The position numbers and the translations under genes are program-made. Of a stretch of 64,000 bases of DNA, positions 40,842 through 64,000 are shown in pieces. Each line of letters begins with the position of its first letter. Within the stretch, counting starts at the first letter, position 1. The notes below the pieces were generated by a model. The model saw only the letters and a program-made list of their open reading frames with translations, was not told the DNA's origin and made no database searches. Where the stretch lies: assembly GCF_004352855.1 (NCBI RefSeq), contig NZ_SJSC01000003.1, positions 1 to 64,000 of the forward strand, given 5' to 3'. The stretch comes from Marinomonas sp. KMM3893 (lineage in GTDB: Bacteria > Pseudomonadota > Gammaproteobacteria > Pseudomonadales > Marinomonadaceae).

Positions 40842-42184
40842 GTCAAGAAACCATCTATTGCCCTGCTATTTTTCTTACTGCTCCGGCGTCGAATCAAGGT
40901 AAAACAACGATTACGGCGGCCTTGGCTCGTTACTTTACCAAACAAGGAAAGGTGGTCAGGGTGTTTAAAACTGGGCCTGATTATTTAGACCCACAAATAC
41001 TCGCCCAAGCCTCCCAACAACCGGTTGAGCAGTTAGACATCTGGATGGCAGGTGATGATTACTGTCAGGATCGTTTGTATCAAGCAGCAAAAGTTGCGGA
41101 CCTGATTCTTGTTGAAGGCGCCATGGGGATGTTTGATGGCGAGCCATCCAGTGCGGATCTTGCGGCACGTTTTGGTATTCCGATGGCCATTGTGATGGAT
41201 GTGAAGGGGATGGCGCAAACGGCCGCGGCCTTGGCGACAGGGTTGGCGAATTTTCGAGCGGATGTCACCGTGGTTGGCTTGATTGCGAACCGTTGTGGAA
41301 GTGAACGCCATGCTGAGTTAATTCGCGACGCGCTGCCGGCGTCTTTGCCATTGCTGGCGACATTGAAGCGCGATGAAGAAGTGACACTGCCAGAGCGCCA
41401 TTTGGGGTTGGTACAAGCAGAAGAAGTCGCGGACGAACTTGAGCTTCGTTTTGAAGCAGCGGTTGACTGGTTGCAACAATCAAATGATGACGGTTTATTA
41501 ACCCTGCCGGAACCGGTGGCTTTTCTACCCGCAGAGCGCGATCACGCAGAAGTACCGGCTAAGCGTCATTTGCAAGGTAAAACCATCGCCGTGGCGAAAG
41601 ATGCCGCTTTTAGTTTTATTTATGATGCCAACCTGAATGCACTAAAAAGCTTGGGCGCGACTATTGTCTTTTTCTCTCCGTTAAAAGACTCGCACTTGCC
41701 AGCCGCTGACGCGCTTTGGTTACCAGGTGGATACCCAGAATTGCACGCCAAAACCTTGTCTGAAAATACGCATATGCGACTTGCGATACAGGCGTTTTTT
41801 GCGACTGGCAAACCCCTTCTCGCCGAGTGTGGAGGCATGTTGTATAGCTTAGAAGAGCTGACAGATTTAGAAGGTCATTGTTACCCAATGTTGGGCATTT
41901 TACCCGGCCAAGGAGCCATGCGCGGTAAGCGTGGTTGTCAAGGTATGCAAACGGCCGTGGTGCCGCAAGGGGACATTCGTGGCCATGCTCATCACAGATC
42001 ACGCAGCGCGAACACGCCAGAGCCAGTTGGTTATGGCCGCCGTCAGCGTCATCCAGCCCCAGGGGAGGCCATTTACCAGCAGCAGGGGCTAACCGCCAGT
42101 TATTTGCATTTGTTTTTCCCGTCAAACTTAGCGGCGACAGCGGCTCTTTTTTTAGGCGTAAACCGTTTGGGTGAGAGCGCATAA
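40838..42184 (+). CDS. cobB: Cobyrinate (hydrogenobyrinate) a,c-diamide synthase
   Basis: 448 residues. The N-terminal dethiobiotin-synthetase-like domain has TAPASNQGKTTITAALAR (P-loop) and FKTGPDYLDP. The C-terminal class I glutamine amidotransferase domain has the catalytic Cys in LAECGGMLYSLEEL and the His in SYLHLFFPSN. It amidates the a and c side chains of the corrin ring with glutamine and ATP. ATGA overlap with the chelatase gene at its start implies coupling. Whether the substrate is hydrogenobyrinate (late cobalt) or cobyrinate (early cobalt) cannot be read from the sequence. Confidence 0.93.
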   Translation: MSQETIYCPAIFLTAPASNQGKTTITAALARYFTKQGKVVRVFKTGPDYLDPQILAQASQQPVEQLDIWMAGDDYCQDRLYQAAKVADLILVEGAMGMFDGEPSSADLAARFGIPMAIVMDVKGMAQTAAALATGLANFRADVTVVGLIANRCGSERHAELIRDALPASLPLLATLKRDEEVTLPERHLGLVQAEEVADELELRFEAAVDWLQQSNDDGLLTLPEPVAFLPAERDHAEVPAKRHLQGKTIAVAKDAAFSFIYDANLNALKSLGATIVFFSPLKDSHLPAADALWLPGGYPELHAKTLSENTHMRLAIQAFFATGKPLLAECGGMLYSLEELTDLEGHCYPMLGILPGQGAMRGKRGCQGMQTAVVPQGDIRGHAHHRSRSANTPEPVGYGRRQRHPAPGEAIYQQQGLTASYLHLFFPSNLAATAALFLGVNRLGESA

Positions 42185-42185
42185 T

Positions 42186-43319
42186 ATGTGGCCTGAAAGT
42201 GCAGAAAAGCCAACGCCATTGCGCACCGGTCTGACCACAGGCACCTGTGCGACGGCGTGTTGTGTGGCGGCGGCGCAAGCACTTTTTGCGCAACGCCAAG
42301 ATAAAACGGTTAGTGTGACCTTGCCAAAAGGGAAGCAGGTTGATCTGACGATTGAAGCGTATAAGGTGAGCGAATCAAGCGCTCGCACGTCGACCATAAA
42401 GGATGCAGGCGATGATCCTGATGCGACTCATGGGGCGACGATTTTTGTCGAACTGGCGTTAAGCGCGCAGCAAGGTGTACATTTCTATGCCGCTGAAGGG
42501 GTTGGTATTGTGACTCGTACCGGCTTATTGCTTGACGTGGGTGAGCCTGCAATCAACCCTGTGCCGCGAAAAATGATGACAGAGCACCTTGAAGGTTTTG
42601 CTCAAACCTATCATTACCAAGGGGGCTTTGATGTCTCTGTTGGGGTGATCAATGGGGCTCAGATTGCAGAAAAAACCATGAACCCGCGTCTTGGTATTAT
42701 GGGCGGGATTTCAATTCTTGGTACCACAGGCATAGTTCGGCCGTTTTCTTGCGCCGCTTATATTGCGTCTATCCACCAAGGCATCGATGTGGCGCGCGCC
42801 AATGGCATTACTCACATTGCAGCCACCACAGGCAATAGCAGTGAAGACGCGATAAAAAAACATTATCAACTCGATGATATGGCGTTGATCGAAATGGGGG
42901 ACTTTGTCGGAGCTGTGCTTAAGCACGTGAGAAAAGTGGAGCAGCACAGTGGCGCCAAATTAACGACATTAAGCTTGTGTGGCGGTTTTGGAAAAATCAG
43001 CAAATTGGCTCAACAGCATATGGATCTAAACAGTCGAGTATCGAGCATTGATTTACCGGCATTGGCAAGCTTAGCGACCCGCTTAGGGGCTGAGGTTGAG
43101 CTGACTGAAAAAATGGCCCAGGCGAACACCAGTGTAGAAGCATTGAAATTTGCTCAGCAAGCGGGCCTTCCACTCGCCGACGCGATTTGTGCTCAGGCAT
43201 TACATTTTGCGCGTTCCTATATACCGTCGCACATAGCACTGGAAGTCTGGGCAATTGATCGTCGTGGTCAGTTTGTCGGTCATGCCACAGATGCAGATTC
43301 GCGAGGAAGGATGAAATGA
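42186..43319 (+). CDS. cbiD: CbiD, (cobalt-)precorrin-5B C1-methyltransferase
   Basis: 377 residues from ATG 42186; an in-frame GTG overlaps cobB at 42171. RTGLTTGTCATACCVAAAQ at the N-terminus and ILGTTGIVRPFS and AATTGNSSED further in are CbiD hallmarks. It methylates C1 using SAM, replacing CobF of the classical aerobic route. CbiD next to CobK and a ChlID-like motor is the mix known from pseudomonads. Confidence 0.93.
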   Translation: MWPESAEKPTPLRTGLTTGTCATACCVAAAQALFAQRQDKTVSVTLPKGKQVDLTIEAYKVSESSARTSTIKDAGDDPDATHGATIFVELALSAQQGVHFYAAEGVGIVTRTGLLLDVGEPAINPVPRKMMTEHLEGFAQTYHYQGGFDVSVGVINGAQIAEKTMNPRLGIMGGISILGTTGIVRPFSCAAYIASIHQGIDVARANGITHIAATTGNSSEDAIKKHYQLDDMALIEMGDFVGAVLKHVRKVEQHSGAKLTTLSLCGGFGKISKLAQQHMDLNSRVSSIDLPALASLATRLGAEVELTEKMAQANTSVEALKFAQQAGLPLADAICAQALHFARSYIPSHIALEVWAIDRRGQFVGHATDADSRGRMK

Positions 43320-44092
43320 AAATTTTATTACTAGGAGGCACCGCAGACGGGCGTCGTCTGGCGGACACCCTTCATCAAGCGGGCGTTCGAGTGGTGTACA
43401 GCTTGGCTGGGTTGGTGCGAGTGCCAAAAGTGGATTGTGAGCTGGTGGTTGGTGGTTTTACTCAGTTTGGTGGTTTAGCCGCATACCTAAGAGCCAATCA
43501 GATTACCCTGGTTTTGGATGTGACCCATCCTTATGCCCACACCATGAGCAGTAAAGCGGTGGTCGCTGCCCGTGAAGTTGGCATTCCTTGCTGGCGTTTT
43601 CATCGCCCCGCTTGGCAACCTAAAGCGGGTGACCGCTGGCGTTATTACCAAGATGATTCCGCGTTAGTTTCACTGCTCAAAGGGTGTCGTACTCCATTGC
43701 TCAGTGCAGGGCAAATGCCCGAATCTTTGTTGAGAACGATTCTCAAAAATGATACTGTAGCGTCCGTTATTTGGCGCACGGCTGTGGCCGCAAAATTCCC
43801 CCTGCCAGAAGGCGTTCAGTGGATCAAAGCCATTGGCCCTTTTGCTTTAGAGGAAGAGCGAAAGCTGCTTGTTGATTACCAAGTAGATGTCATTGTTAGT
43901 AAAAACAGTGGGGGTGACGCCACGTACGCTAAACTAGAAGCCGCGCGGGAATTAGGGATAGATGTGTTGCTTCAAGAGCGACCTAGATTGCCTGCCGCGG
44001 ACAAAGAGTTTAATGACACAGATACTTGCCTAGAGGCCTGCTTAAGCGTCTGTAGTCCCTCCATTCATGATCAAAAAGACAGCCAACAGTGA
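43316..44092 (+). CDS. cobK: Precorrin-6A reductase
   Basis: 258 residues. The Rossmann start KILLLGGTADGRRLADTL, the middle DVTHPYAHTMSSKAVVAAREV and KNSGGDATYAKLEAARELGI near the end are the CobK/CbiJ signature. It reduces the precorrin-6A macrocycle with NADPH. It overlaps cbiD by four bases. Confidence 0.93.
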   Translation: MKILLLGGTADGRRLADTLHQAGVRVVYSLAGLVRVPKVDCELVVGGFTQFGGLAAYLRANQITLVLDVTHPYAHTMSSKAVVAAREVGIPCWRFHRPAWQPKAGDRWRYYQDDSALVSLLKGCRTPLLSAGQMPESLLRTILKNDTVASVIWRTAVAAKFPLPEGVQWIKAIGPFALEEERKLLVDYQVDVIVSKNSGGDATYAKLEAARELGIDVLLQERPRLPAADKEFNDTDTCLEACLSVCSPSIHDQKDSQQ

Positions 44093-44781
44093 CAAATTCA
44101 ACCAACGATAATATTAGCCAAAAGAGTCATTCTATGTCAGAGCCGCAACGCTACGAGCAAAACCCACAGGCGATTGAACAAGACAGTTTTCGTCAGATTC
44201 GTGCGCTAACCGACCTTTCTGCGCTGACTCAAGATCAACAACAAGTGGTGATGCGCATCGTACACAGTTTGGGGTTGCCTGATGTGGCGAACAGCGTGCG
44301 CTTTAGTGCGAACGCAACGCAGGCTGGGCGCGAGGCGTTGGCGAATAATGGTGCGATTTTATGCGATGTGGAAATGGTCAAGCAGGGTGTGACTAAGCGC
44401 ATGATTGAGCGTGAACCCCTGTGTTTTTTAAACGATCCTACGGTTGCCATGTTGGCGAAAAATCGAAGTGAAACGCGTTCTATGGCGGCATTAAGCCTGT
44501 GGACGGATTCATTAGAAGGCAGTGTCGTTTTGATTGGTAACGCACCAACCGCCTTGTTTCGCCTATTGGAAATGATTGAGCAAGGCGCGCCCAAACCGGC
44601 TTTGATTATTGGTATGCCGGTGGGCTTTGTCGGCGCGGCAGAATCCAAGCAAGCGCTTTGGGATGCGCACCAAACACTAGGCGTAGAATGCATTACATTA
44701 CTCGGCCGTATGGGAGGCAGTGCGGTGACTTCTGCCAGCTGCAATGCCTTACTGCGTTGTAACTTGGGTGAGTATTATTGA
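44089..44781 (+). CDS. cobH: Precorrin-8X methylmutase
   Basis: 230 residues. The core IVHSLGLPDVANSVRFS contains the conserved His that aligns with the catalytic His of CobH/CbiC, and GMPVGFVGAAESK is typical. It moves a methyl group from C11 to C12 to give hydrogenobyrinate or cobyrinate. The start is GTG 44089 within the cobK stop (GTGA); the N-terminal 20 residues are poorly conserved, and ATG 44134 is an alternative. Confidence 0.92.
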   Translation: MTNSTNDNISQKSHSMSEPQRYEQNPQAIEQDSFRQIRALTDLSALTQDQQQVVMRIVHSLGLPDVANSVRFSANATQAGREALANNGAILCDVEMVKQGVTKRMIEREPLCFLNDPTVAMLAKNRSETRSMAALSLWTDSLEGSVVLIGNAPTALFRLLEMIEQGAPKPALIIGMPVGFVGAAESKQALWDAHQTLGVECITLLGRMGGSAVTSASCNALLRCNLGEYY

Positions 44782-46100
44782 TGCAAATTCATGTGATTGG
44801 GTTGGGGGTGGCGGAATGTGCGAATTTAGCGGCGCCAGCACAAGCCGTATTATCAAACTTAACCGAACATGACATAGTCGTAGGCTCGCCTCGGCAGCAT
44901 GACACCCTGGTGGACTTTGCACATCAAGCCCAGGTAGAAAAGCTGCCTAAGCTGTCTCAATTGGCGGTTAAATTCGAGCAATGGCAACAAGAAGGCGCAG
45001 CACAAGTGGTGGTGTTGGCTTCTGGAGATCCTCTATTTTATGGGGTAGGAGCTTGGCTTAAGCGTACTTTTGGCGGCGTCGGTTCTGCTCATAAATTGGT
45101 TTTTTACCCTAATGTGTCCAGTATTCAAATGGCGTGTCATCGTCTGGGGTTGTCATTGCAAGATGTGCAGGTGGTGAGTTTGCATGGCCGACCCTTATCG
45201 AATCTACGTTCTTCATTGCAGTGCAATAAAACCCTAGTGTTACTGACAGATCAATACAGTCAGCCAAAACACATTGCACAAGAGTGCCTAGCGGCCGGCT
45301 TAGCTCACAGTGAGATCACCGTTTGTGAAGCTTTGGGGTATCAACATGAGCAGGTACGTCAGTTCTCTGCCACAACCTTGTGCGAGCAAACGGCACTGAC
45401 ATTTGACCCGTTAAACGTCATTGTCGTGAAAACAGGCAGGCCGAGTGGCGGTCAAGGAAGCCTGTATCCGAGCGCACCGGGGATTCCTGATCACGCCTTT
45501 GTTACCGATAAAGGCGACGGCAAAGGGATGATCACCAAGCGCGAAGTTAGGCTGGTTATCCTCTCTTATTTGGGGCTTCAAGCGGGTGATACAGTCTGGG
45601 ACATTGGTGCTGGCTGTGGTGGTGTGAGTGTGGAGCTTGCCTATTGGCATCAGCAAAGCCACATCATTGCCATTGAGCATCATCCACAACGCTTAGCCTG
45701 CCTAGAAGCCAATCAAGATCGTTTTGGCGTTACCCGTAATTTGTCCATTGTGGCAGGGCGTGCACCTGAAGCATTGGCCGATTTGCCCTTACCCGATAAA
45801 GTTTTTATTGGTGGCAGTGATGGCGCTTTGAATGACCTGATGGCGCAAGTATGGTCATGTTTGCCTCTTGGTGGCCATTTAATGGTGAGCGCGGTGACAG
45901 AAGACAGCAAGTTTCAGGTCATGCAATTTGCCAATCAGCGTGCGCGCTTGCAAGACGCCGAAGAACACAGTTTGCAGTTGGCTGTATCCAAACAAGATCG
46001 TTTAGCCGGTCAGCGGCTGTATCGCCCTAATCTGCCAGTGACCTTGTCTTTATTTATTAAGACGTCAATGGCTATTAATACACAAAAGGACACCGAGTAA
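44781..46100 (+). CDS. cobL: Precorrin-6Y C5,15-methyltransferase, CbiE-CbiT fusion
   Basis: 439 residues, the length of the CobL fusion. The N-terminal CbiE half is a tetrapyrrole methylase (VLASGDPLFYGVGAWL). The C-terminal CbiT half has a SAM-binding core (VWDIGAGCGGVSVELAYW) and FIGGSDGAL. It methylates C5 and C15 and decarboxylates the C12 acetate. ATG 44781 shares bases with the cobH TGA; a TTG three bases earlier is also possible. Confidence 0.92.
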   Translation: MQIHVIGLGVAECANLAAPAQAVLSNLTEHDIVVGSPRQHDTLVDFAHQAQVEKLPKLSQLAVKFEQWQQEGAAQVVVLASGDPLFYGVGAWLKRTFGGVGSAHKLVFYPNVSSIQMACHRLGLSLQDVQVVSLHGRPLSNLRSSLQCNKTLVLLTDQYSQPKHIAQECLAAGLAHSEITVCEALGYQHEQVRQFSATTLCEQTALTFDPLNVIVVKTGRPSGGQGSLYPSAPGIPDHAFVTDKGDGKGMITKREVRLVILSYLGLQAGDTVWDIGAGCGGVSVELAYWHQQSHIIAIEHHPQRLACLEANQDRFGVTRNLSIVAGRAPEALADLPLPDKVFIGGSDGALNDLMAQVWSCLPLGGHLMVSAVTEDSKFQVMQFANQRARLQDAEEHSLQLAVSKQDRLAGQRLYRPNLPVTLSLFIKTSMAINTQKDTE

Positions 46101-46849
46101 TGAAGGCTGTCGAGATGATAACAAACGAACAAACAAAAGGGCGCTTTATTGGGGTTGGAGTCGGCCCAGGTGATCCTGAATTGATTACTTTAAAGGCACT
46201 ACGTTTAATTCAAGGTGCCAGTGTGGTGAGTTATCTGGCCAATGGCGAAGGCAATTCACAAGCCAAAAACATTGCCTGTGAAGCCTTTTCAGGTGTTACC
46301 CATCAACAAAATGAAATCGCGATTGTGATGCCCATGTCAACCGATCGTGAAGAAGCCAATAAGGCCTATGATGGCGGAGCACAGGCGATAGCCGATGAGC
46401 TAGAAAACGGACGTGATGTGGTGTTTTTATGTGAAGGGGACCCACTGTTTTTTGGCTCTTTTGCGTATTTATTAGAACGTTTAGAGGGGCAGTTCTCTTG
46501 TCAGGTAGTGCCTGGAGTCTCTTCTATTAATGCGGCATCTTCGGCCTTGAATCACCCATTAACGGTATTAAAAGAGTCGTTTGCTGTCGTGAGTGGGCGT
46601 CACTCTGCATTGCAAATTGATACCGCGTTAGAGCAACACGACAGTGTTGTTATTATGAAAGCGGGCCGTGCTAGACCTCGTATACTGACCGCTCTACGGA
46701 AGACGAACCGCCTGCAAGACGCAAAATATCTAGAGTACATTGGCCGTGATAATGAGCGCATAGTGCAAGACGTATCCACATTGGAAGACAAAGCAGGGCC
46801 GTATTTCTCCTTGTTTGTCGTGACTAAGAGCGAGCGAGGTACACGTTGA
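46100..46849 (+). CDS. cobI: Precorrin-2 C20-methyltransferase
   Basis: 249 residues. FIGVGVGPGDPELITLKALRLI opens the tetrapyrrole methylase fold; VFLCEGDPLFFGSFAYL and VPGVSSINAASS complete the SAM site. It makes precorrin-3A, the first committed corrin-specific methylation after precorrin-2. It overlaps cobL by one base. Confidence 0.92.
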   Translation: MKAVEMITNEQTKGRFIGVGVGPGDPELITLKALRLIQGASVVSYLANGEGNSQAKNIACEAFSGVTHQQNEIAIVMPMSTDREEANKAYDGGAQAIADELENGRDVVFLCEGDPLFFGSFAYLLERLEGQFSCQVVPGVSSINAASSALNHPLTVLKESFAVVSGRHSALQIDTALEQHDSVVIMKAGRARPRILTALRKTNRLQDAKYLEYIGRDNERIVQDVSTLEDKAGPYFSLFVVTKSERGTR

Positions 46850-47604
46850 TTCGCATTGTTGCCCTGACGCCAGCGGGTGAGCAGCTTGCTAGGCGCATAT
46901 TACGTCAGTGGCCTGAGGCGGTATTGGATTATAAGCCCAAGCCGTTTGCTCAAAAGGTGCGCTCAGCGTTCCAGCAAGGCGATCACTTGGTGTTTATTTG
47001 TGCCACAGGCATTGTTATGCGGACCTTGGCGCCCGTTATAGAAGATAAATACCAAGACCCTCCGGTGTTGGTCTTAGATGAGTTGGGGAAATTTGTTATT
47101 CCTCTTTTATCAGGCCATGAAGGCGGGGCGAATGAATGGGGGGCTCAAGTCGCAAATAGTCTTGGGGCTCAATTGGTGGCAACGACTGCCAAGGCGTATC
47201 TGAATCCTGTTTATACCTTAGGTATGGGGTGTGAGCGAGGTTGTCCACTGGCGTTTTTAGAACGCCTCATGTTGGAAGGGCTGTCTCAAAAAGGATTAAC
47301 ACCGAAGGATATTCATTCTTTGAGCAGCATAGATATAAAAGCCGATGAAGAGAATCTAATCGCTTTAGCGGAAAAGTATGCTTGGTCATTTCAGACCTTC
47401 AGTGCAGAGCAACTCACCCCAATGGCAAGTTTATTAAGCACCCATTCTGAGTATGTTTTCAACACGGTGGGGGTCTACGGTGTGGCGGAATCTGCGGCCC
47501 TATTTGCAGCAAAACAGGCTGCGGATAGCGCACCAGAATTGATCTTAAATAAGATTAAAAATGCAAAGGCGACTGTCTCTATTGCAAGAGCATTCAAAGC
47601 ATAA
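46846..47604 (+). CDS. cbiG: Short CbiG-like protein, central domain missing
   Basis: 252 residues, about 100 short of Salmonella CbiG. Residues 1-120 form the CbiG N-domain (FICATGIVMRTLAPVIEDKY, IPLLSGHEGGANEWG). The next segment goes straight to the C-domain (YTLGMGCERGCPLAFLERL, NTVGVYGVAESAAL). The roughly 95-residue middle domain is absent. CbiG opens the delta-lactone in the early-cobalt route; in late-cobalt organisms its C-domain relates to CobE. The start is TTG 46846 overlapping the cobI stop (TTGA), so translation probably depends on coupling. Confidence 0.85.
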   Translation: MIRIVALTPAGEQLARRILRQWPEAVLDYKPKPFAQKVRSAFQQGDHLVFICATGIVMRTLAPVIEDKYQDPPVLVLDELGKFVIPLLSGHEGGANEWGAQVANSLGAQLVATTAKAYLNPVYTLGMGCERGCPLAFLERLMLEGLSQKGLTPKDIHSLSSIDIKADEENLIALAEKYAWSFQTFSAEQLTPMASLLSTHSEYVFNTVGVYGVAESAALFAAKQAADSAPELILNKIKNAKATVSIARAFKA

Positions 47605-53604: not shown

Positions 53605-55170
53605 ATGATTAAAAAATGGATTGCCACAGGCATACTGCTTACAGGGAGCATCGCGGCCATGGCTGCAACGCCACCAAACGCGTTGGTTGTTGCTCAATCG
53701 CTCGACGATGTGACCAGTTTGGACCCAGCACAAGGATTTGAATTAACCTCAGTACAAACCTTTACCAATATCTATCAGCGACTGGTTCAGTCAGACCCTG
53801 AAAACCCAACAGAATTAAAACCAACATTGGCAACCAGTTGGGTATCGACGCCGCGTAGTTTAACACTGACACTGCGGGATAATGCTCAGTTTGCGAGTGG
53901 TAATCCTATTCGACCAGAAGACGTGCTTTTCTCATTAAGCCGAGTGGTAAAATTGAATTTAGCGCCGTCTTTTATTTTGACCCAATTAGGTTGGGATAAA
54001 GACAATGTGGATAGCCACCTACAAAAAGTGGACGCTAATAAGGTAAAAATCACTTGGGACGTTAATGTGGGTCCTTCGTTTGTTTTAAGTTTATTGTCGG
54101 CTCCAGCGTCTTCTATCGTGGATGAAAAAGCCGTTGAGATGCATGTCAAGAATGGCGATTTTGGTCACGCTTGGTTAAACAATCATTCGGCTGGCAGTGG
54201 TCCATTTCAAATTATGAAATACACGCCTCATGAAGCATTGGTTCTGACGGCAAACAAAACATCGCCTGCCGGCGCACCTAAAATGCAGATGATTTTGATG
54301 AAAAACGTCCCTGATGCGGCAACCCGTCAACTATTGATAGAGCAAGGTGATGCGGACATTGCACGTAACCTAGGTTCTGATCAATTTGAGTCGCTACAAG
54401 GAAAGCCTGGGGTGAAAGCCTTAGCGTTACCTTATGCATCACTTTATTACATCATGTTTAATACCAAAGCGAAGAATAACCCAGATTTGGGCAATCCGAA
54501 ATTTTGGGAAGCGGCGCATTGGGCATTTGATTACAAAGGCATTGCCGTAGACTTGATGCGTGGTCAATTTCAAGTTCAGCAGTCTTTCCTTCCGCAAGGC
54601 TTCAACGGCGCTTTGACGGATCAGCCATACCATTACGATCCAGAAAAAGCGAAACAGATCTTAAAAGACGCTGGAATCAAAGACCCACACTTCAAATTGG
54701 TGGTTTCTAACCAACCGCCATATTTGGATGTTGCTCAAGCATTACAAGCCAGCTTTGCGAAAGCGGGTATCCGAGTGGAACTGATTCCTGGTATCAGTAG
54801 CCAAGTGTCTAATGACGTAAAAGAACATAACTACGAAGCCAATGTATCGTCTTGGGGGCCGGACTATTTTGACCCTAATACCAATGCCTCTTCGTTTGCT
54901 TACAACCCGGAAAATGGCTCAAAAACCATAGCATGGCGTGCCAATTGGCAGATTCCAGAGCTAAGCAAAATGACCATTGCAGCCCGCGCCGAAACTGACC
55001 CTGTTAAGCGTACAAAAATGTACCAAGAGTTGCAGCGTCAGGTGCGTGAAAGTGCACCGTTCGTGATTGGTTTGCAAAATAAAAAGTTGGTTGCTATTCG
55101 AGATAATCTAAAAGGTTATGTCCAAGGCATTACGCCAGACATGGTTTACTATCAAAACGTTTCTAAATAA
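53605..55170 (+). CDS. Peptide-type ABC transporter substrate-binding protein (SBP_bac_5)
   Basis: 521 residues. A Sec signal peptide (MIKKWIATGILLTGSIAAMA) leads to a family 5 periplasmic binding fold with VTSLDPAQGFELTSVQTFTN and later FASGNPIRPEDVLFSLSR. This family binds peptides, nickel chelates or opines. It is the first gene of a complete importer operon and overlaps the first permease gene by one base. The ligand is not evident. Confidence 0.9.
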   Translation: MIKKWIATGILLTGSIAAMAATPPNALVVAQSLDDVTSLDPAQGFELTSVQTFTNIYQRLVQSDPENPTELKPTLATSWVSTPRSLTLTLRDNAQFASGNPIRPEDVLFSLSRVVKLNLAPSFILTQLGWDKDNVDSHLQKVDANKVKITWDVNVGPSFVLSLLSAPASSIVDEKAVEMHVKNGDFGHAWLNNHSAGSGPFQIMKYTPHEALVLTANKTSPAGAPKMQMILMKNVPDAATRQLLIEQGDADIARNLGSDQFESLQGKPGVKALALPYASLYYIMFNTKAKNNPDLGNPKFWEAAHWAFDYKGIAVDLMRGQFQVQQSFLPQGFNGALTDQPYHYDPEKAKQILKDAGIKDPHFKLVVSNQPPYLDVAQALQASFAKAGIRVELIPGISSQVSNDVKEHNYEANVSSWGPDYFDPNTNASSFAYNPENGSKTIAWRANWQIPELSKMTIAARAETDPVKRTKMYQELQRQVRESAPFVIGLQNKKLVAIRDNLKGYVQGITPDMVYYQNVSK

Positions 55171-56225
55171 TGAGTAATATTGATAAATCAGCCGGCGCAA
55201 TGCGTCGGCTTTGGATAGGCCGCAGCCAACATTTGGCGAGCGGCCTTATTTCGTTAGCGCTGACCTTATTCGGCTTATTGGTGTTTACCTTTTTGCTGTC
55301 TCGCGCTGCGCCAATCGACCCCGCATTGCAGTTAGTGGGTGATCATGCGAGTGAGGAAACTTATCAGCAAGCACGACACGAATTGGGGTTAGATGAGCCT
55401 TTGCCGATGCAGTTTCTGCATTATTTAGGCCGTTTGACTCATGGTGATCTAGGCATGTCTCAGTTAAGCCAGCAACCTGTGCTTAATGACCTTATGCGTA
55501 CTTTTCCTGCGACCATTGAACTGGCCACTTGTGCGATGTTTTTTGGTGCCTTTTTTGGCATTTTATTTGCCATCTTAGCGGTCTATAAGCCGGGCAGTTG
55601 GTTAGATCAGCTGGCAAGGTTTATTTCTCTGTTAGGTTATTCTGTGCCGGTTTTCTGGCTTGGTTTGCTTGGGCTATTGCTCTTTTATGCGACGCTACAT
55701 TGGTCCGCAGGGCCTGGCCGACTGGATGATATTTACACCTATACCATGACGCAAGACAGTGGTTTTGTGCTGTTGGATGCTTTTCGTAGCGGTGACATTA
55801 ATATTATAAAAAATGCCATCGCTCACCTCTGGTTACCCGTTGCGGTCTTGGCGTTACTGTCGATGGCGTCTATTACTCGCCTGTTACGAGCGGTGATGTT
55901 GGAAGAAAGTAATAAAGAATACGTGATTCTGGCACAAGCTAAAGGCGCCAGTCGTTTGCGTATCTTATTAGTGCATGTGTTCCCTAATGTATTAGGCACC
56001 TTGATTACCATATTGGCCTTGTCTTACACCGGATTATTAGAAGGGGCGGTGTTAACGGAAACCGTGTTTGCTTGGCCTGGTTTAGGGCGCTATTTGACCA
56101 GCGCATTGTTCGCATCGGATACGGCGGCTGTATTAGGAGCGACCTTATTAATCGGCACCTGTTTTGTGTTGCTTAATGCGCTTGCCGACATACTGACTAA
56201 ATGGGTGGACCCAAGAACACGATGA
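55170..56225 (+). CDS. ABC transporter permease, DppB/OppB type
   Basis: 351 residues. An N-terminal helix and a large periplasmic segment (RAAPIDPALQLVGDHASEET) lead to about five further helices. The EAA-loop is LEESNKEYVILAQAKGASRLRILLVHVFPN (shown by its key AKGAS residues). It forms half of the importer channel. Confidence 0.9.
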   Translation: MSNIDKSAGAMRRLWIGRSQHLASGLISLALTLFGLLVFTFLLSRAAPIDPALQLVGDHASEETYQQARHELGLDEPLPMQFLHYLGRLTHGDLGMSQLSQQPVLNDLMRTFPATIELATCAMFFGAFFGILFAILAVYKPGSWLDQLARFISLLGYSVPVFWLGLLGLLLFYATLHWSAGPGRLDDIYTYTMTQDSGFVLLDAFRSGDINIIKNAIAHLWLPVAVLALLSMASITRLLRAVMLEESNKEYVILAQAKGASRLRILLVHVFPNVLGTLITILALSYTGLLEGAVLTETVFAWPGLGRYLTSALFASDTAAVLGATLLIGTCFVLLNALADILTKWVDPRTR

Positions 56226-57067
56226 TGACTTTAAAAAAACATGGTGCTTTTCGATGGCTAAGTCTGTTTAGTACCTTAAATATTGGTTTGGCGTTGGTGA
56301 TTTTGCTGGTGGTATTGGCTTTGCTTGCTCCGCAATTATCGACCTTTGATCCCAATGTGCAAAATATCCAAGATCGGTTATTGGCACCCAATGCGCAGCA
56401 TTGGTTTGGTACCGATCGCTTTGGTCGCGACCTTTTCTCACGAGTGCTGCATGGTGCTCGTCCTACTTTGCTATTAGTCAGCTTGGTTATTGTATTAACC
56501 GTGCCAATTGGTTTAACGGTAGGGATTTGTGCGGGCTATTTTGGCGGCTGGGTAGAGCGTATTTTAATGCGCTTAACGGACATTGTAATGTCCTTGCCAA
56601 GCTTGGTTATTGCCTTGGCATTGGTGTCAATTTTAGGCCCTGGTTTGATGAATGGCGCATTGGCGTTGGCCTTTACCAGCTGGCCATCTTTTGCGCGTCA
56701 AGCGCGAACGGAAACCTTATCGATCCGTCGTAGTGATTATCTGTCAGCGGCAAAAATGCAAGGCATCAGTGGCTGGCGTTTGATCTTTGGGCACATCTTG
56801 CCATTGATTTTACCCAGCGCAATTGTTCGCGCGGCGCTAAATCTAGGGGGCATTATTCTGTCCGCTGCAGGGCTTGGTTTCTTAGGCATGGGCATTCAAC
56901 CACCCGCGGCGGAATGGGGCTCTATGGTGGCCAGTGGTAGCCGAGTGATCTTCGATCAATGGTGGGTCGCGGCGGTACCGGGTGTGGCTATTTTATTAGC
57001 CAGTCTTGCTTTTAATCTGCTCGGAGATGGGCTGAGAGATAAAATGGACCCTCGTCATGACAAATAA
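56222..57067 (+). CDS. ABC transporter permease, DppC/OppC type
   Basis: 281 residues. The short N-terminal helix, the LLAPNAQHWFGTDRFGRDLFSR region and the EAA-loop (SAAKMQGISGWRLIFGHILP) are typical of the DppC family. The start overlaps the previous gene in ATGATGA. It pairs with the DppB-type permease. Confidence 0.9.
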   Translation: MMTLKKHGAFRWLSLFSTLNIGLALVILLVVLALLAPQLSTFDPNVQNIQDRLLAPNAQHWFGTDRFGRDLFSRVLHGARPTLLLVSLVIVLTVPIGLTVGICAGYFGGWVERILMRLTDIVMSLPSLVIALALVSILGPGLMNGALALAFTSWPSFARQARTETLSIRRSDYLSAAKMQGISGWRLIFGHILPLILPSAIVRAALNLGGIILSAAGLGFLGMGIQPPAAEWGSMVASGSRVIFDQWWVAAVPGVAILLASLAFNLLGDGLRDKMDPRHDK

Positions 57068-57893
57068 AACGACATTAGTGGACGTGCGCGGCTTGCATAT
57101 TGGCCTTAACGACGGCACTCAGCTGGTCAAAGGAATTGATTTTTCCATGGGGCGCGAACGCGTTGCCTTGGTCGGCGAATCCGGTTCTGGTAAGTCGCTT
57201 ACCGCTCGCTCATTAATGGGCTTGCTAGCGGATTCGTTAGTGGTAGACGCAGAGCGTTTTCAGCTGCTTGAGCATCCGGTATTAAACTACGACCAACGAC
57301 AATGGAACCGGCTGCGTGGTCATCAAGTCTCCATGGTATTGCAAGACCCTAAGTACGCGCTGAATCCGACTCAAAACATCGGTCGTCAAGTGGCCGAACC
57401 CTTACTATTGCATCAATCCATGTCCCGTAAAGCCAGGACAGAAAAAGTCGAACACATGCTCGATGCGGTGGGGCTTCCTAACCCTGCTGAGCTAAGAAAA
57501 ATGTACCCACATCAATTGTCTGGTGGCATGGGGCAAAGGGTCATGTTGGCAATGGCGCTGATCAATGATCCGCAATTATTGATTGCCGATGAGCCCACAT
57601 CAGCCCTAGATCATGCGGTTCGAGATCAGGTTTTGGACTTGATCCATTCTCTTGTAGAAGAGCGCAATATGGGACTTTTATTGATCAGTCACGATCTTCA
57701 GCAAGTCGCCGATTATTGTGAGCGCGTAATGGTGATGTATCAGGGGCGCTTGATCGATCATTTACCCGCAGAAGACTTGCCAAATGCGACCCACCCTTAC
57801 ACGCAAACCTTATGGTCGTGCCGACCCAACATTACTAAGCGTGGCCAGCCTCTGCCCACCTTAGATCGCGAGCACTTGGAGACATTGAATTGA
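57057..57893 (+). CDS. ABC transporter ATP-binding protein, DppD/OppD type
   Basis: 278 residues. Walker A GESGSGKSLTARSL, signature LSGGMGQRVMLAMAL and Walker B LLIADEPTSALD are intact. The C-terminal extension lacks the Fe-S-type cysteine cluster found in some DppD proteins. It overlaps the DppC-type gene by eleven bases. Confidence 0.9.
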   Translation: MTNKTTLVDVRGLHIGLNDGTQLVKGIDFSMGRERVALVGESGSGKSLTARSLMGLLADSLVVDAERFQLLEHPVLNYDQRQWNRLRGHQVSMVLQDPKYALNPTQNIGRQVAEPLLLHQSMSRKARTEKVEHMLDAVGLPNPAELRKMYPHQLSGGMGQRVMLAMALINDPQLLIADEPTSALDHAVRDQVLDLIHSLVEERNMGLLLISHDLQQVADYCERVMVMYQGRLIDHLPAEDLPNATHPYTQTLWSCRPNITKRGQPLPTLDREHLETLN

Positions 57894-58576
57894 ACGTGCT
57901 AGAGCTTAAAAACGTCAGTGTGAGTCATGCCCAAGGCTTGCAGCGCAATACTGTGGTACACGACATAGATTTAACCGTCGAAGCTGGAGAATGTTTTGGT
58001 TTGGTTGGTCCGTCGGGGTGTGGCAAATCGTCGCTTTTATGGGTGCTTGCTGGGTTAAATCCGCATTGGGAAGGCGACATTAGCCTATTTGGTCAGACAC
58101 TGGAATCTGGTAAGGTTTTCACTGGCGATTTACGTCGCCGAGTGCAAATGGTGTTTCAAGATCCTTACGCCTCGTTACACCCCAAGCACCGCTTGCGTCG
58201 AACGCTTGCGGAGCCGCTGAAGTTGCTCGGTTTGCCAGACATTGATGAGCGCATTAGCGAGGGCTTTAAGCAGGTGGGGTTAACGGAAAATATGATTGAC
58301 CGTTACCCACATCAATTGTCCGGTGGTCAGCGTCAACGGGTGGCCATTGTTCGCGCCTTGTTGCTTGAACCCAAGTTGTTATTACTGGATGAACCGACGT
58401 CGGCGTTAGACATGTCGGTTCAGGCTGAAATATTGAATTTATTAAATGACTTAAAGGCCCGTCGTGATTTGACTATGATCATGGTGAGTCATGATCCTGA
58501 CGTGATTGATTACATGTGTGACCATGGGGTCACCATGAAAGCAGGGCGTATCGATCAAGAAAAGCATTACACCTAA
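57890..58576 (+). CDS. ABC transporter ATP-binding protein, DppF/OppF type
   Basis: 228 residues, shorter than the usual 320 or so because the C-terminal oligopeptide extension is missing, as in NikE-like proteins. Walker A GPSGCGKSSLLWVL, signature LSGGQRQRVAIVRAL and Walker B LLLLDEPTSALDMS are intact. The start is TTG 57890 overlapping the previous stop in TTGA; GTG 57896 is an alternative. It completes the five-gene importer. Confidence 0.9.
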   Translation: MNVLELKNVSVSHAQGLQRNTVVHDIDLTVEAGECFGLVGPSGCGKSSLLWVLAGLNPHWEGDISLFGQTLESGKVFTGDLRRRVQMVFQDPYASLHPKHRLRRTLAEPLKLLGLPDIDERISEGFKQVGLTENMIDRYPHQLSGGQRQRVAIVRALLLEPKLLLLDEPTSALDMSVQAEILNLLNDLKARRDLTMIMVSHDPDVIDYMCDHGVTMKAGRIDQEKHYT

Positions 58577-59750: not shown

Positions 59751-61721
59751 TTATGGCGCATCGGGCTTGGTTGGGTCTTTTAGTACTTCTTCAAAGCGCA
59801 ACAGCCGTCCGGTGTTAACTAATACCAGTAAGGTACTGAGGTTATGCAGTAGCGCAGCGATTAATGCACCGGCTGCGCCTAATGCGCCAAAGGCCGCCGC
59901 GGCCATAATCGCCACTGTCCAACTAAGACCAATGATGACATTCATGTGCAGCGTGCGACGGCAGCGTCGGCTTAATCGCACACAGGTTCCTAAGCGTCTT
60001 AAATCACTGCCAATCAATACGATATCGGCCGAAGCCAGTGCGATATCTGCCCCACCAGCGCCCATAGCAACCCCCACGACACCGGCCTTTAGCGCTAAAG
60101 AATCGTTAATGCCATCGCCTACGACTAAGGGTTTAAAGCCAGACTGAATTTCATCTCTTACCCTGTGTAATTTATCTTCAGGCAATGCTTGCGCAACAAT
60201 GTCACTAATGCCCACTTCGGCCGCCAGCTTGTTGGCTACCGATTGACGGTCGCCGGTGAGCAAAAGTTGTCGTCCTACCCCCAAAGCTTTTAAATCCGCC
60301 AGCGCTTGTGAGGCTTCTGGGCGTACTTTATCGGCGAGCAAAAACCAGCAAATAAACTGCCCCTTGAGAGACAAGCCCGCCATTGGACCGTCATGGTCAG
60401 GAACAGGGGGAAATACAATGCCCAGCTGAGTAAAGAGTTCAGGTCGACCTAATGCCGCTTCGCCTTGTTCCGTCTCTGCTACCACGCCTAATCCCTGGTG
60501 TTCACGCACGTTTTGCAAGGATTGATAGTCTTGATGCTCAATTAGGCTGCTCAAGGCCCGACTAACAGGGTGACTACTGGACGCCCCTAAACTGGCCCCT
60601 AAAGTGACTAACTGAGTCTCTGAAAGCGGAGAGTTCGCCACCGGTTGTAGGGACTCTAAACTTAAGGCGCCAAAGGTCAATGTCCCTGTTTTGTCGATGA
60701 CTAAGGAACTCAGCTCGGTAAATTCTTCTAAAAAAGCCGAGCTTCGAATCAATATGCCGTGACGAGCTGCCACCGCGATACCGGCGATGGAAGCCGCTGG
60801 CGCAGACAAAACAAGGGCACAAGGGCACGCCGCTACCAACACCGCCAACATAGCTTGAGCGTCGTAAGTCACAAACCAAGTAATGGCCGCCACCATGAGC
60901 ACCAACAGCATGTATTGCCCTGCGTAACGCTCAAGCAAACGAGTAATCGGCGGCTTTGCTTGCTCGGCTTTTTGCATCAGGGCGATCACCTTGCCCAAGG
61001 TGGATTCGTCGCCGGTACGGGTGACACGAATGCGCAGTAGACCGTCTAGATTAATGGCACCACCAAACACATCATCGCCGGTTTTGGCTTCTTGTGGCAC
61101 CGACTCTCCGGTAATAGGGGCTGTGTCCAAACTGGCCATGCCCGCTATGATTTTGCCATCGGCAGGAATGCGATCGCCTGCACGAACTTCAACCAGATCC
61201 CCGGTTTGTAGCTGTTGATTACCAACATCACTGATGCTGCCATCTGGGTTGATTTTACGAGCGTTGCTGTGGGTGAGTTGGCTCAATGCGTCGATTGCTT
61301 CTTGGGAGCCGATCACGCTGCGCTCTTCTAGAATATGGCCAAAAATCATGATGATAGGCAATAGAGCCGCGGTTGTTAAATCTCCCGTGGCCCATGCACC
61401 TAACATGGCAAGGGCAATTAATTGATCGGTAATGCCATGCAAACTCGGGTGTTTTAGGCTATGCCAGCCTGAGCGTAAGACGGGAAAAGCGACCAACACA
61501 GAGGCTAAGCCAAGCAGCAGCTGACTGACGCTTTGCTGAGAAGGAAATAGCCAATGCCAAACCAACCCCAAGGCCAATAACCCCAGAGCAACCATCGCCA
61601 GAGTCAGTTGTTTAGCGGCGGCTTTTTTTTCGCGACGACTCAAGGAGCCACTGGCAAAATGGATGTGCCCATGGTCATGAGCGTGATCATGGCCGTGATG
61701 TGAATGAGACGACTGAGTCAT
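59751..61721 (-). CDS. P1B-type metal-transporting ATPase with His-rich N-terminus
   Basis: 656 residues. Canonical motifs: TGES actuator loop (APITGESVPQ), ACPCAL in the membrane, DKTGTLTFG phosphorylation site, SSSHPVS, and VVGDGINDS. The N-terminus has no CxxC metal-binding domain but is His-rich (HSHHGHDHAHDHGHIH). The last membrane segments read LLHNLSTLLVLVNTGRLL instead of the K and DxG pattern of Zn/Cd pumps or the YN and MxxSS pattern of Cu pumps, so the metal is unclear. It is the last gene of a coupled set with two SPFH genes, overlapping the upstream one by four bases. Confidence 0.88.
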   Translation of the reverse strand: MTQSSHSHHGHDHAHDHGHIHFASGSLSRREKKAAAKQLTLAMVALGLLALGLVWHWLFPSQQSVSQLLLGLASVLVAFPVLRSGWHSLKHPSLHGITDQLIALAMLGAWATGDLTTAALLPIIMIFGHILEERSVIGSQEAIDALSQLTHSNARKINPDGSISDVGNQQLQTGDLVEVRAGDRIPADGKIIAGMASLDTAPITGESVPQEAKTGDDVFGGAINLDGLLRIRVTRTGDESTLGKVIALMQKAEQAKPPITRLLERYAGQYMLLVLMVAAITWFVTYDAQAMLAVLVAACPCALVLSAPAASIAGIAVAARHGILIRSSAFLEEFTELSSLVIDKTGTLTFGALSLESLQPVANSPLSETQLVTLGASLGASSSHPVSRALSSLIEHQDYQSLQNVREHQGLGVVAETEQGEAALGRPELFTQLGIVFPPVPDHDGPMAGLSLKGQFICWFLLADKVRPEASQALADLKALGVGRQLLLTGDRQSVANKLAAEVGISDIVAQALPEDKLHRVRDEIQSGFKPLVVGDGINDSLALKAGVVGVAMGAGGADIALASADIVLIGSDLRRLGTCVRLSRRCRRTLHMNVIIGLSWTVAIMAAAAFGALGAAGALIAALLHNLSTLLVLVNTGRLLRFEEVLKDPTKPDAP

Positions 61722-62782
61722 GGTTGTTTGCCTTGTAGAATAAGTTTGCCATCGTCACTAGGGTCTACCGTGGTGACAGAACCGGCTTGTGACAGCAAGG
61801 TGTGAATACGTTGGCGATACAAGCGCCACAGCAGGCCTGGGTCTGTATTATTTTGCTGGAGCTGAGCAAGGCGACTGATGGTGGCGGTGTCGGTGTGAGC
61901 CTTTGCGACGCGTTCGCTGGCATTTGCATTGGCTTGTTGTATCAAGCGGTCGGCTTCTTGATTGGCTTTTTGTCGTGTTGTGGCGGCTTTATTGTTCGCT
62001 TCAGCCACGGTTTGTTTGGCCAATTGGCTAGCGGTTAGGACGGCATTAAAGGCGTCCACGGTTTCCACCGGCAAGCTTGGTTGAAGGTCGACACGAGCGA
62101 TTCGAATGCCGAGACTAGCGTGTTCTTTTGCTAGTGCGGCCAACCCTTGGTTGATGCTTTGTACTAGGTCTGCGCGCAGTTTTTCCCGCTTAATCGCGGC
62201 TTCGGTACTGGCGCCGACCAATTCAGGGCGGGCCACCAAAATAGTGTCTAAGTCACGCGACGCTGACACCAATACCGCGCTGCGTTCAACCAAGCGATCC
62301 AAGGCAAAAGACACATGCTTTCCTTGCAGTACATAAGCGTAAGGGTCGGTGACCTTGTAATATAGATGAACGCCTAATTGCACGACACCGGCGTCGCCGG
62401 TTAATAGGTAGCCCACGCCTGCGTTTGCGTCGCTGGCCATGCCAGAATTAAGCCCAGTGTAGTTAGCGACTTCAGGTCGAATTAAAGCTTGGACCGTACG
62501 ATCAATAACGCGATCGGCGGCTGGCAGAATCACTACTTTTTCAAACGGTTGCGGCCACGCCAATAGCAGGCCTGAGTCTTGTACTCTATCAATGGCGCCA
62601 AAACTCAATACCACGGCGCGACTGTCAGGACCGATTTCCCGAACATTGCTAACGAGCCAAGTAAATGCGGTTATAAAGGTCAGCAGATAGAGTGCCAAAA
62701 AAGCCAATCGACCAGCCTGGAACCAGTGACCTTTTGGTTGATTTAGCGGTCTTTCCTGAGTGACGCTTTTGCCAGAGATCAT
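61718..62782 (-). CDS. SPFH-family protein, HflK-like
   Basis: 354 residues. One N-terminal membrane helix (LAFLALYLLTFITAFTWLV, about residues 27-45) leads to an SPFH/Band 7 domain (PDSRAVVLSFGAIDRVQDSG, VQLGVHLYYKVTDPYAYVLQ) and a long Ala/Gln-rich coiled coil (ATTRQKANQEADRLIQQANA). Classical HflK forms a cage with HflC around FtsH. This is a divergent paralog placed with a metal ATPase, not with hfq-hflX. Four-base overlaps with both neighbours indicate coupled translation. Confidence 0.85.
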   Translation of the reverse strand: MISGKSVTQERPLNQPKGHWFQAGRLAFLALYLLTFITAFTWLVSNVREIGPDSRAVVLSFGAIDRVQDSGLLLAWPQPFEKVVILPAADRVIDRTVQALIRPEVANYTGLNSGMASDANAGVGYLLTGDAGVVQLGVHLYYKVTDPYAYVLQGKHVSFALDRLVERSAVLVSASRDLDTILVARPELVGASTEAAIKREKLRADLVQSINQGLAALAKEHASLGIRIARVDLQPSLPVETVDAFNAVLTASQLAKQTVAEANNKAATTRQKANQEADRLIQQANANASERVAKAHTDTATISRLAQLQQNNTDPGLLWRLYRQRIHTLLSQAGSVTTVDPSDDGKLILQGKQP

Positions 62783-63834
62783 GGTTTTTTCGCCTCTTGG
62801 CTGTTGGGCGTATTAGGCGAAAGAAAGGTGTTGGGCCCATCGATCAGTGCGCTAAATGGTGCCGCGTCGGTTCTAAGAACCAAATGCGTATTCTTATTGA
62901 TAATGCCACTTAGGGTATCGAGGGAGCGCAACATATCGTAGAGCTGTGGTGCTTCGGCGTGGGCTTTACCATAAATGCTGGCGGCTTCGACTAAGGATTT
63001 TGCTTCAATGTTCGCGGCTTTGACTGTCGCATCGGCGGTAATAATACGCGCTTCTTTTTGTGCTTCTGAGGTGATTTGAGCGGCTTGTCGTTTGCCTTCT
63101 GCAGTGCGTTGTGTCGCTATGGTTTCCCGTTCAGCACGCATTCGATCTACGGTGGCCGACAGCGTGACCACGGGTAGGGTTAATCGCTCAATGCCAACTT
63201 GCACCACGCGAACACCGTAAGTGTCCAAAAGGGATTGGCTAATTTGTTCTCGAAGTTTGGCTTCAAAAAGAGGGATTTGTACTTTACTGGCGTCTGTGTT
63301 GACCAAACTGGACAAGTTATAGCCGCTGGCGGTGGCTTCTAAAGCGGAGCCCACAAAGGTTCGTAGTTGGCGAGCGGCTTCGTCTGGTTGGTTTTGAACG
63401 GCGCGCATAAAGCGCTGCACATCGTCTTTATCAGATTTAACCTGCCACACCACATAGGCTTGCACAATAATACGTAGACCGTCTTTTGTGCCTACGTCTT
63501 GCAAGCCGCTGGAAGTGGTTCGTAAGCGTAAATCAACCGGAGTAGACAGCTCGAAAGGCGCAGGCAAATGCCAAGCGAGCCCAGGTTCTAGTAAGACTCT
63601 GACAGGGTTGCCAAAGCGTGTAATAACTTCCGCTTCACCAGAGCGCACTTGAACCAAGCAAGCCGCCGCGATGGCGAACGCGACAAGCAGCAAGGCGAAA
63701 CTTATGCGACGCCATGCCCCTTTTGAGGCGCTTGGCGCAGTGGGGCTGTGATGGTGATGATGATCATCATCTGAATGAGGCGCGTGATCGGTTTCGTCAT
63801 GGGCATGATGAGTAGGGTTGTGTGACGTGCTCAT
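62779..63834 (-). CDS. SPFH-family protein, HflC-like, with His-rich N-terminus
   Basis: 351 residues. The cytoplasmic N-terminus is His/Asp-rich (THHAHDETDHAPHSDDDHHHHH) and probably binds metal. One membrane helix (ISFALLLVAFAIAAACLV) and an SPFH domain follow (GEAEVITRFGNPVRVLLEPG), then a coiled coil (QITSEAQKEARIITADATV) and a C-terminal region rich in Asn/Pro. ATG 63834 is preceded by AGGAGAG; a longer frame to 63942 runs into the next gene. It overlaps the HflK-like gene by four bases. Confidence 0.85.
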   Translation of the reverse strand: MSTSHNPTHHAHDETDHAPHSDDDHHHHHSPTAPSASKGAWRRISFALLLVAFAIAAACLVQVRSGEAEVITRFGNPVRVLLEPGLAWHLPAPFELSTPVDLRLRTTSSGLQDVGTKDGLRIIVQAYVVWQVKSDKDDVQRFMRAVQNQPDEAARQLRTFVGSALEATASGYNLSSLVNTDASKVQIPLFEAKLREQISQSLLDTYGVRVVQVGIERLTLPVVTLSATVDRMRAERETIATQRTAEGKRQAAQITSEAQKEARIITADATVKAANIEAKSLVEAASIYGKAHAEAPQLYDMLRSLDTLSGIINKNTHLVLRTDAAPFSALIDGPNTFLSPNTPNSQEAKKP

Positions 63835-63844
63835 GGGCGCTCTC

Positions 63845-64000
63845 CTAGTGAGTGGTGTTGGTGTTTGAAACTGGGTCGATAGGAGCGGTGAAGCGTCTAA
63901 AGTCCAGCGTTGGGGATTTATTCCCATGAATACGATGGTCAATGATCAAGCTATTGGCTTGGCTCATACCTTGGGTTAATTGCTGATAATACTGTTCGCG
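63845..64000 (-). CDS. 3' end of a further gene in the SPFH-ATPase set
   Basis: An open frame enters from the right edge and ends with TAG at 63845-63847, ten bases upstream of the HflC-like start. The visible 51 residues begin REQYYQQLTQGMSQANSLII and end DPVSNTNTTH. The polar, Gln-rich helical segment would suit the coiled-coil end of another SPFH-type protein, but no domain can be assigned from so short a stretch. Close spacing and same strand suggest that it belongs to the same operon. Confidence 0.6.
   Translation of the reverse strand, partial: REQYYQQLTQGMSQANSLIIDHRIHGNKSPTLDFRRFTAPIDPVSNTNTTH

Follow-up and report, generated by a model that had tools for sequence, protein, structure and literature searches.

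The stretch of DNA analyzed here, referred to as the window, comprises positions 1-64000 of contig C9 in the 3.75 Mb genome of Marinomonas sp. KMM3893. A minus-strand operon at its end contains four genes in the order SPFH-A, SPFH-B, SPFH-C, and P1B-ATPase. The original prediction, which was made from the letters of this DNA, had described a P1B ATPase and two SPFH genes joined by four-base overlaps. The open reading frames and the Pfam and NCBIfam matches confirmed these genes, and they also revealed that the described composition was incomplete, as a third SPFH gene (SPFH-A) lies upstream and is cut by the end of the window. The features of the operon are as follows, where TM denotes transmembrane and positions are those of the window unless the contig is named.

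C9 65809-63845, minus strand: SPFH-A, whole gene, 654 amino acids; seven predicted TM helices followed by the SPFH domain
63845..64000, minus strand: 3' end of SPFH-A, from the open reading frame and its translation; Band_7; the gene extends to C9 65809, past the window edge
62779..63834, minus strand: SPFH-B, HflC-like, 351 amino acids; His-rich predicted cytoplasmic tail, one TM helix (44-62), SPFH domain
63727..63834, minus strand: residues 1-36 of SPFH-B, a His-rich N-terminal tail ahead of WRR and the TM helix; predicted cytoplasmic
61718..62782, minus strand: SPFH-C, HflK-like, 354 amino acids; one TM helix, SPFH domain
59751..61721, minus strand: HmtA-type P1B-ATPase, 656 amino acids, from Pfam and NCBIfam
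61656..61721, minus strand: His-rich N-terminal tail of the ATPase, residues 1-22; not kept in most relatives
60819..60827, minus strand: CPC motif in M4 of the ATPase, residues 299-301; invariant
59832..59846, minus strand: HNLST motif in M6 of the ATPase, residues 626-630; H626, N627, and T630 each kept in at least 97% of the family

The overlaps between SPFH-C and the ATPase gene (61718-61721) and between SPFH-B and SPFH-C (62779-62782) are four nucleotides each, and the spacing from SPFH-A to SPFH-B is 10 nucleotides. The start of the HflC-like gene SPFH-B had been placed at TTG 63942. We rejected this start and set it to ATG 63834, because TTG 63942 overlaps the end of SPFH-A by about 100 nucleotides and disagrees with the relatives, while ATG 63834 agrees with them and has an AGGAG Shine-Dalgarno sequence in front. 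In the Pfam search, Band_7 was found above its cut-off in all three SPFH proteins, and P-type ATPase domains were found in the pump. The nearest NCBIfam families were HflC for SPFH-B and HflK for SPFH-A and SPFH-C, with all three proteins missing the curated cut-offs (hflC, 100.7 vs. 134.4; hflK, 90.1 and 60 vs. 159.4).

To evaluate whether these genes belong together, we used a set of 92 loci, all encoding SPFH-C, which came from 80 named genome contigs, five plasmids, six other Pseudomonas genomes, and the window genome. The four genes were found in one order and on one strand in all 92 loci, which covered alpha-, beta-, and gammaproteobacteria. Since 80 of the loci had been chosen as best matches and were mostly from Pseudomonas, less biased samples were added. 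In 398 genomes sampled across the phylum (E <= 1e-110 for the ATPase and E <= 1e-30 for SPFH-C), the ATPase and SPFH-C were present in exactly the same 11 genomes. Such strict thresholds were needed to separate the orthologs, as a first class-wide SPFH-C sample had consisted mostly of generic HflK matches at 25-30%. When 72,556 plasmids were searched, the top group for each of the four proteins consisted of one shared set of 10 records, beyond which the identity dropped from 57% to 37% for the ATPase, from 44% to 27% for SPFH-C, and from 62% to 30% for SPFH-B. In these samples, the pump family had sharp limits, and no member of it appeared without the SPFH trio. The pairwise distances among the four genes were also closely correlated (Spearman 0.94-0.98). 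The outcome named beforehand as speaking against a joint gene set was separation of the genes in the majority of relatives. It was not observed (92/92 loci, 11/11 genomes, and 10/10 plasmids), and a distant second SPFH trio likewise adjoins a P1B pump.

The linkage also bears on the idea that the SPFH proteins organize membrane lipids in starvation and that the pump is only a neighbor in the same regulon, co-regulated and independent. SPFH proteins are broadly viewed as membrane organizers (PMC13086221). However, the pump and the trio were never seen apart in the family, across three classes and the plasmids, and we consider independence improbable. Within genera the operon is patchy: it was present in 2 of the 13 genomes of the window's genus and in 13 of the 25 of one Pseudomonas genus. 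The plasmid copies adjoin transposases. As expected, the patchiness and the transposase neighbors fit a gene set that moves as a unit. Two of the copies (L063 and L064) lie on conjugative Burkholderia and Klebsiella plasmids, with transposase genes close by.

The literature describes a cluster in P. aeruginosa that contains PA2439 (HflK family), PA2438 (HflC), PA2437 (HflC family), PA2436, PA2435 (HmtA), and PA2434. PA2434-PA2439 were raised 5.6-14.4-fold in a znuA mutant (PMC4542158), the PA2439 promoter was bound and shifted by Zur in vitro (PMC8531726), the cluster proteins increased on zinc depletion (PMC11761036), and PA2437-PA2439 increased under zinc starvation induced by N-acetylcysteine (PMC9431628). 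HmtA itself has been reported as a Zn/Cu importer (reviewed in PMC10393844 and PMC8456098). The original prediction had known of no characterized system with this composition. That statement holds for the SPFH partners and does not hold for the pump, which is known as HmtA of a Zur-regulon cluster (PMC4542158, PMC8531726, PMC11761036, PMC9431628).

Orthologs of the window operon were found in genome G667 (identity of 51% for SPFH-A, 69% for SPFH-B, 58% for SPFH-C, and 72% for the ATPase, the last at locus L160), in the same layout as the P. aeruginosa cluster, with an insert separating SPFH-C from the pump gene as well. G667 is probably P. paraeruginosa PA7, to judge by its genome length and the matching gene layout. 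On this sequence comparison, which was made via G667, the orthology of the window operon to PA2439-PA2435 is well supported. Both have the same genes in the same order, whereas the window operon has no PA2436-like insert and has a four-nucleotide overlap, not a gap, before the pump gene. At three loci (L148, L161, and L070), an insert of about 600 nucleotides at the PA2436 position encodes a product of 150 amino acids that belongs to no known family and has an apparent signal peptide.

The upstream regions were then compared with the Zur box. A Zur-box-like site (GTTATANNATAAC, with at most two mismatches) was present upstream in 82 of the 82 Pseudomonas loci, compared with 2.6 expected by shuffling. 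In many of these loci, the genes downstream encode FolE2, dihydroorotase, a gamma-carbonic-anhydrase-like protein, a ThrS-like protein, ZigA/COG0523, and AztC/ZnuA, which is the usual zinc-starvation set.

The HmtA-type pumps carry a distinct set of motifs. AACPCAL in M4 was present in all 92 pumps, and the HNxST motif in M6 and the absence of the M5 lysine held in every pump variant listed. Among the solved exporters aligned to the pump, ZntA (4umv) has CPC and LADTGAT, and sCoaT has SPC and LVHEGST; K693/D714 of ZntA and H657/E658 of sCoaT have been assigned to metal and counter-ion sites (PMC8880997). The HmtA family keeps the CoaT-like histidine in M6, with asparagine in place of the acidic residue. 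Of the ZntA/CadA (P1B-2) features, CPC is present and the M5 lysine and M6 aspartate are absent; the CoaT (P1B-4) features, defined as SPC in M4 and HEGxT in M6 (PMC8880997), are absent, the pump having CPC and HNxST instead. By the CPC, M5, and M6 features of its sequence, the pump is neither P1B-2 nor P1B-4. It shares the P1B architecture with both exporter groups, CPC with ZntA, and the M6 histidine with sCoaT (7qbz), which also gave its best phmmer score. In contrast to them, it has no M5 lysine, no M6 Asp/Glu (HN for D or HE), and no HMA domain.

These features bear on whether the pump could be a P1B exporter for metal detoxification, with the His-rich tails gathering surplus cytoplasmic metal for it. 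Exporters of the P1B type commonly carry a His-rich N-terminal tail, the top-scoring NCBIfam subfamilies of the pump are exporter groups, and in an Aquibium operon described below an SPFH trio accompanies a ZntA-type pump, a PCu(A)C protein, and a two-component system. However, the family lacks the ZntA lysine in M5 and aspartate in M6, the ZntA family cut-off in NCBIfam was missed by far (283 vs. 1240 bits), the orthologs are induced by zinc starvation and not by excess, and the Pseudomonas neighbors are zinc-starvation genes. We therefore regard export as unlikely. Import of Zn (or Cu) by the HmtA-type pump is likely in Pseudomonas and probable for the Marinomonas pump, which we infer to move the same metal as its Pseudomonas orthologs.

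The Marinomonas copy may differ from the P. aeruginosa cluster in its regulation. No Zur box was found upstream of the window operon, where the best site had three mismatches and was within chance. In the same genome, the positive controls were detected, with Zur boxes at znuA, the zur operon, and rpmE2/mepM. Because the window operon has no box although these controls have one, the evidence for zinc regulation does not extend to Marinomonas, and Zur control of the window operon was dropped as a candidate. The Marinomonas operon may answer to another signal. Two gene sets are found near it in the window. A cobalamin synthesis cluster (39075-47604; a putative cobaltochelatase, CbiD, and others) lies about 12 kb from the pump gene, and a Nik/Dpp-type ATP-binding cassette (ABC) importer (53605-58576) is convergent with the operon; this type of importer also adjoins the operon at L067 and L069, two of the three other Marinomonas loci. 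These neighbors, together with the missing Zur box, would suit a Marinomonas module for the uptake of cobalt or nickel in place of zinc. However, the ABC importer missed all nickel cut-offs and may carry peptides, and the pump retains the family motifs unchanged, so that we give this possibility a low probability. Outside the window, a gene for a His-rich membrane protein resembling nickel/cobalt efflux proteins (L043 1543-2981; C8 near 292478) stands directly before the gene of a Zur-like regulator, and a perfect Zur-box-like site lies upstream of this gene pair.

The three SPFH proteins share with HflK/HflC the SPFH domain, the predicted N-in topology with a periplasmic SPFH domain, and the adjacency of K- and C-like genes. 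The window set differs in having three subunits, one of them polytopic, a His-rich tail, scores below the curated cut-offs, and a P-type pump as the partner gene instead of hfq/hflX. A separate adjacent SPFH gene pair of the HflK/HflC type was found elsewhere in the genome (C9 511931-513450) and is taken to be the canonical hflK/hflC. A further explanation is that the trio forms an alternative HflK/C set under metal starvation, which would not house the pump but would join or compete at FtsH and thus shield the pump or alter membrane-protein turnover. HflK/C are the known partners of FtsH, which is a zinc metalloprotease (PMC12048511). The trio has the corresponding composition, with SPFH-B being HflC-like and SPFH-A and SPFH-C HflK-like by NCBIfam, and the nearest solved chains to SPFH-B are those of E. 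coli HflC. On the other hand, none of the three proteins reaches the curated cut-offs, no protease gene is linked while the pump is linked in every locus, and the genome already has the other HflK/C-type pair. This route appears to us as unlikely as export.

Seven TM helices are predicted for SPFH-A in almost every version examined. For the M. flavescens ortholog, the AlphaFold2 (AF2) model of residues 20-260 was largely of high confidence. In VIA-align, the first 29 rows for this model were all CDF proteins, and the next unrelated fold had a Z score of 7.6. The top CDF overlay (194 residues, 3.4 A) had a Z score of 15.3; values of 13-14 can arise by chance between helical bundles. Foldseek of the same model gave nothing at E <= 0.001, the profile search found no PF01545 in SPFH-A, and hhalign of SPFH-A against a CDF alignment and against the N-terminus of the first Aquibium SPFH protein (K1, below) gave a probability of 0.1%. 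No conserved H/D pairs (the H/DxxxD metal sites) were found in TM2/TM5 of SPFH-A. Membership of SPFH-A in the CDF family is not claimed, given that the support is the structural overlay, the hhalign probability is 0.1%, and the CDF metal residues are missing. The model makes a CDF relation of SPFH-A a lead.

This lead is strengthened by the operon on the Aquibium oceanicum plasmid NZ_CP018172.1 (L212 5358-14643), because its first SPFH protein (K1) is a true CDF-SPFH fusion (PF01545, 89 bits; Band_7, 73.5 bits; both HxxxD motifs). The operon contains K-C-K SPFH genes and genes for a PPIase, a ZntA-type P1B ATPase, PCu(A)C, and SCO, with a two-component system upstream. The K1 search within one bacterial family gave one full-length match (97%), and this second genome (L258) carries the whole operon at 92-99% identity. 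The search with the Aquibium HflC found HflC-type proteins in 340 of the 398 genomes and did not resolve this second family. Both operons have a K-C-K SPFH trio with a four-nucleotide overlap near a P1B ATPase, and the first SPFH protein of both has a six-TM N-terminal domain. They differ in that the identity is 26-30%, the Aquibium N-terminal domain is a true CDF (PF01545), and the Aquibium pump is ZntA-type with HMA domains, with the PPIase gene intervening. Tentatively, the two operons might represent a general class, in which SPFH assemblies with a CDF-derived membrane subunit would act as sealed metal-transport compartments around P1B pumps, for import (HmtA type, degenerate CDF fold) or export (Aquibium type, intact CDF and ZntA-type pump); we think it somewhat doubtful that such a class exists.

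The ATPase has 9 His in its first 24 residues and SPFH-B has 11 in its first 40 (binomial P of about 3e-9 for each, at the local His rate of 2.5%). Both His-rich N-termini in the original prediction are thus present in the window, and only that of SPFH-B is conserved: it is His-rich in 88 of the 92 loci (5 or more His within residues 1-50; median, 15), compared with 23 of the 92 for the ATPase. The SPFH-B tail is predicted to be cytoplasmic because WRR and the TM helix come next, and the SPFH domains are predicted to be periplasmic. Shared metal handling by the two tails, as had been suggested, remains plausible, with the conserved tail belonging to the putative ring protein and not to both.

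Collectively, the results point to a dedicated hmtA-type metal-uptake module in which an SPFH assembly surrounds a metal importer, a reading to which we assign an even chance. In this module, the HmtA-type pump would move a transition metal, most likely Zn2+ and possibly also Cu, from the periplasm to the cytoplasm. HflK/HflC form a periplasmic shell over a membrane patch with FtsH inside (PMC12048511). By analogy, the three SPFH proteins would form a hetero-oligomeric periplasmic dome around the pump instead of FtsH, and the patch would also hold the six-helix CDF-like membrane domain of SPFH-A. The His-rich tails of SPFH-B would ring the cytoplasmic exit, where they could buffer or pass on the incoming metal and limit back-flow. 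Ring formation, enclosure of the pump, and the role of the tails are all inferred.

Several points weigh against the uptake module. Import by HmtA was derived from overexpression data, and one review asks for confirmation; in one study, the hmtA mRNA level did not change when zinc was added (PMC8531726). A triple deletion of the SPFH orthologs in P. aeruginosa had slight phenotypes only (PMC13086221), and a search of that paper for zinc and metal terms found no metal-limitation assay. To these are added the missing Zur box in Marinomonas, the poor AF2 models of the SPFH domains (mean pLDDT, the predicted local distance difference test, of 58-60), and the fact that no physical association of the pump with the SPFH proteins is known.

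Although SPFH rings are widespread, few bacterial ones have a known client. Here, wherever the pump family was encountered, on plasmids and across three bacterial classes, its own three SPFH proteins accompanied it, which provides a concrete candidate for a client pair. The proposed module could account for the housing or regulation of an unusual P-type importer, and it would give a function to three genes of the Pseudomonas Zur regulon that are annotated only as HflK/HflC-like.

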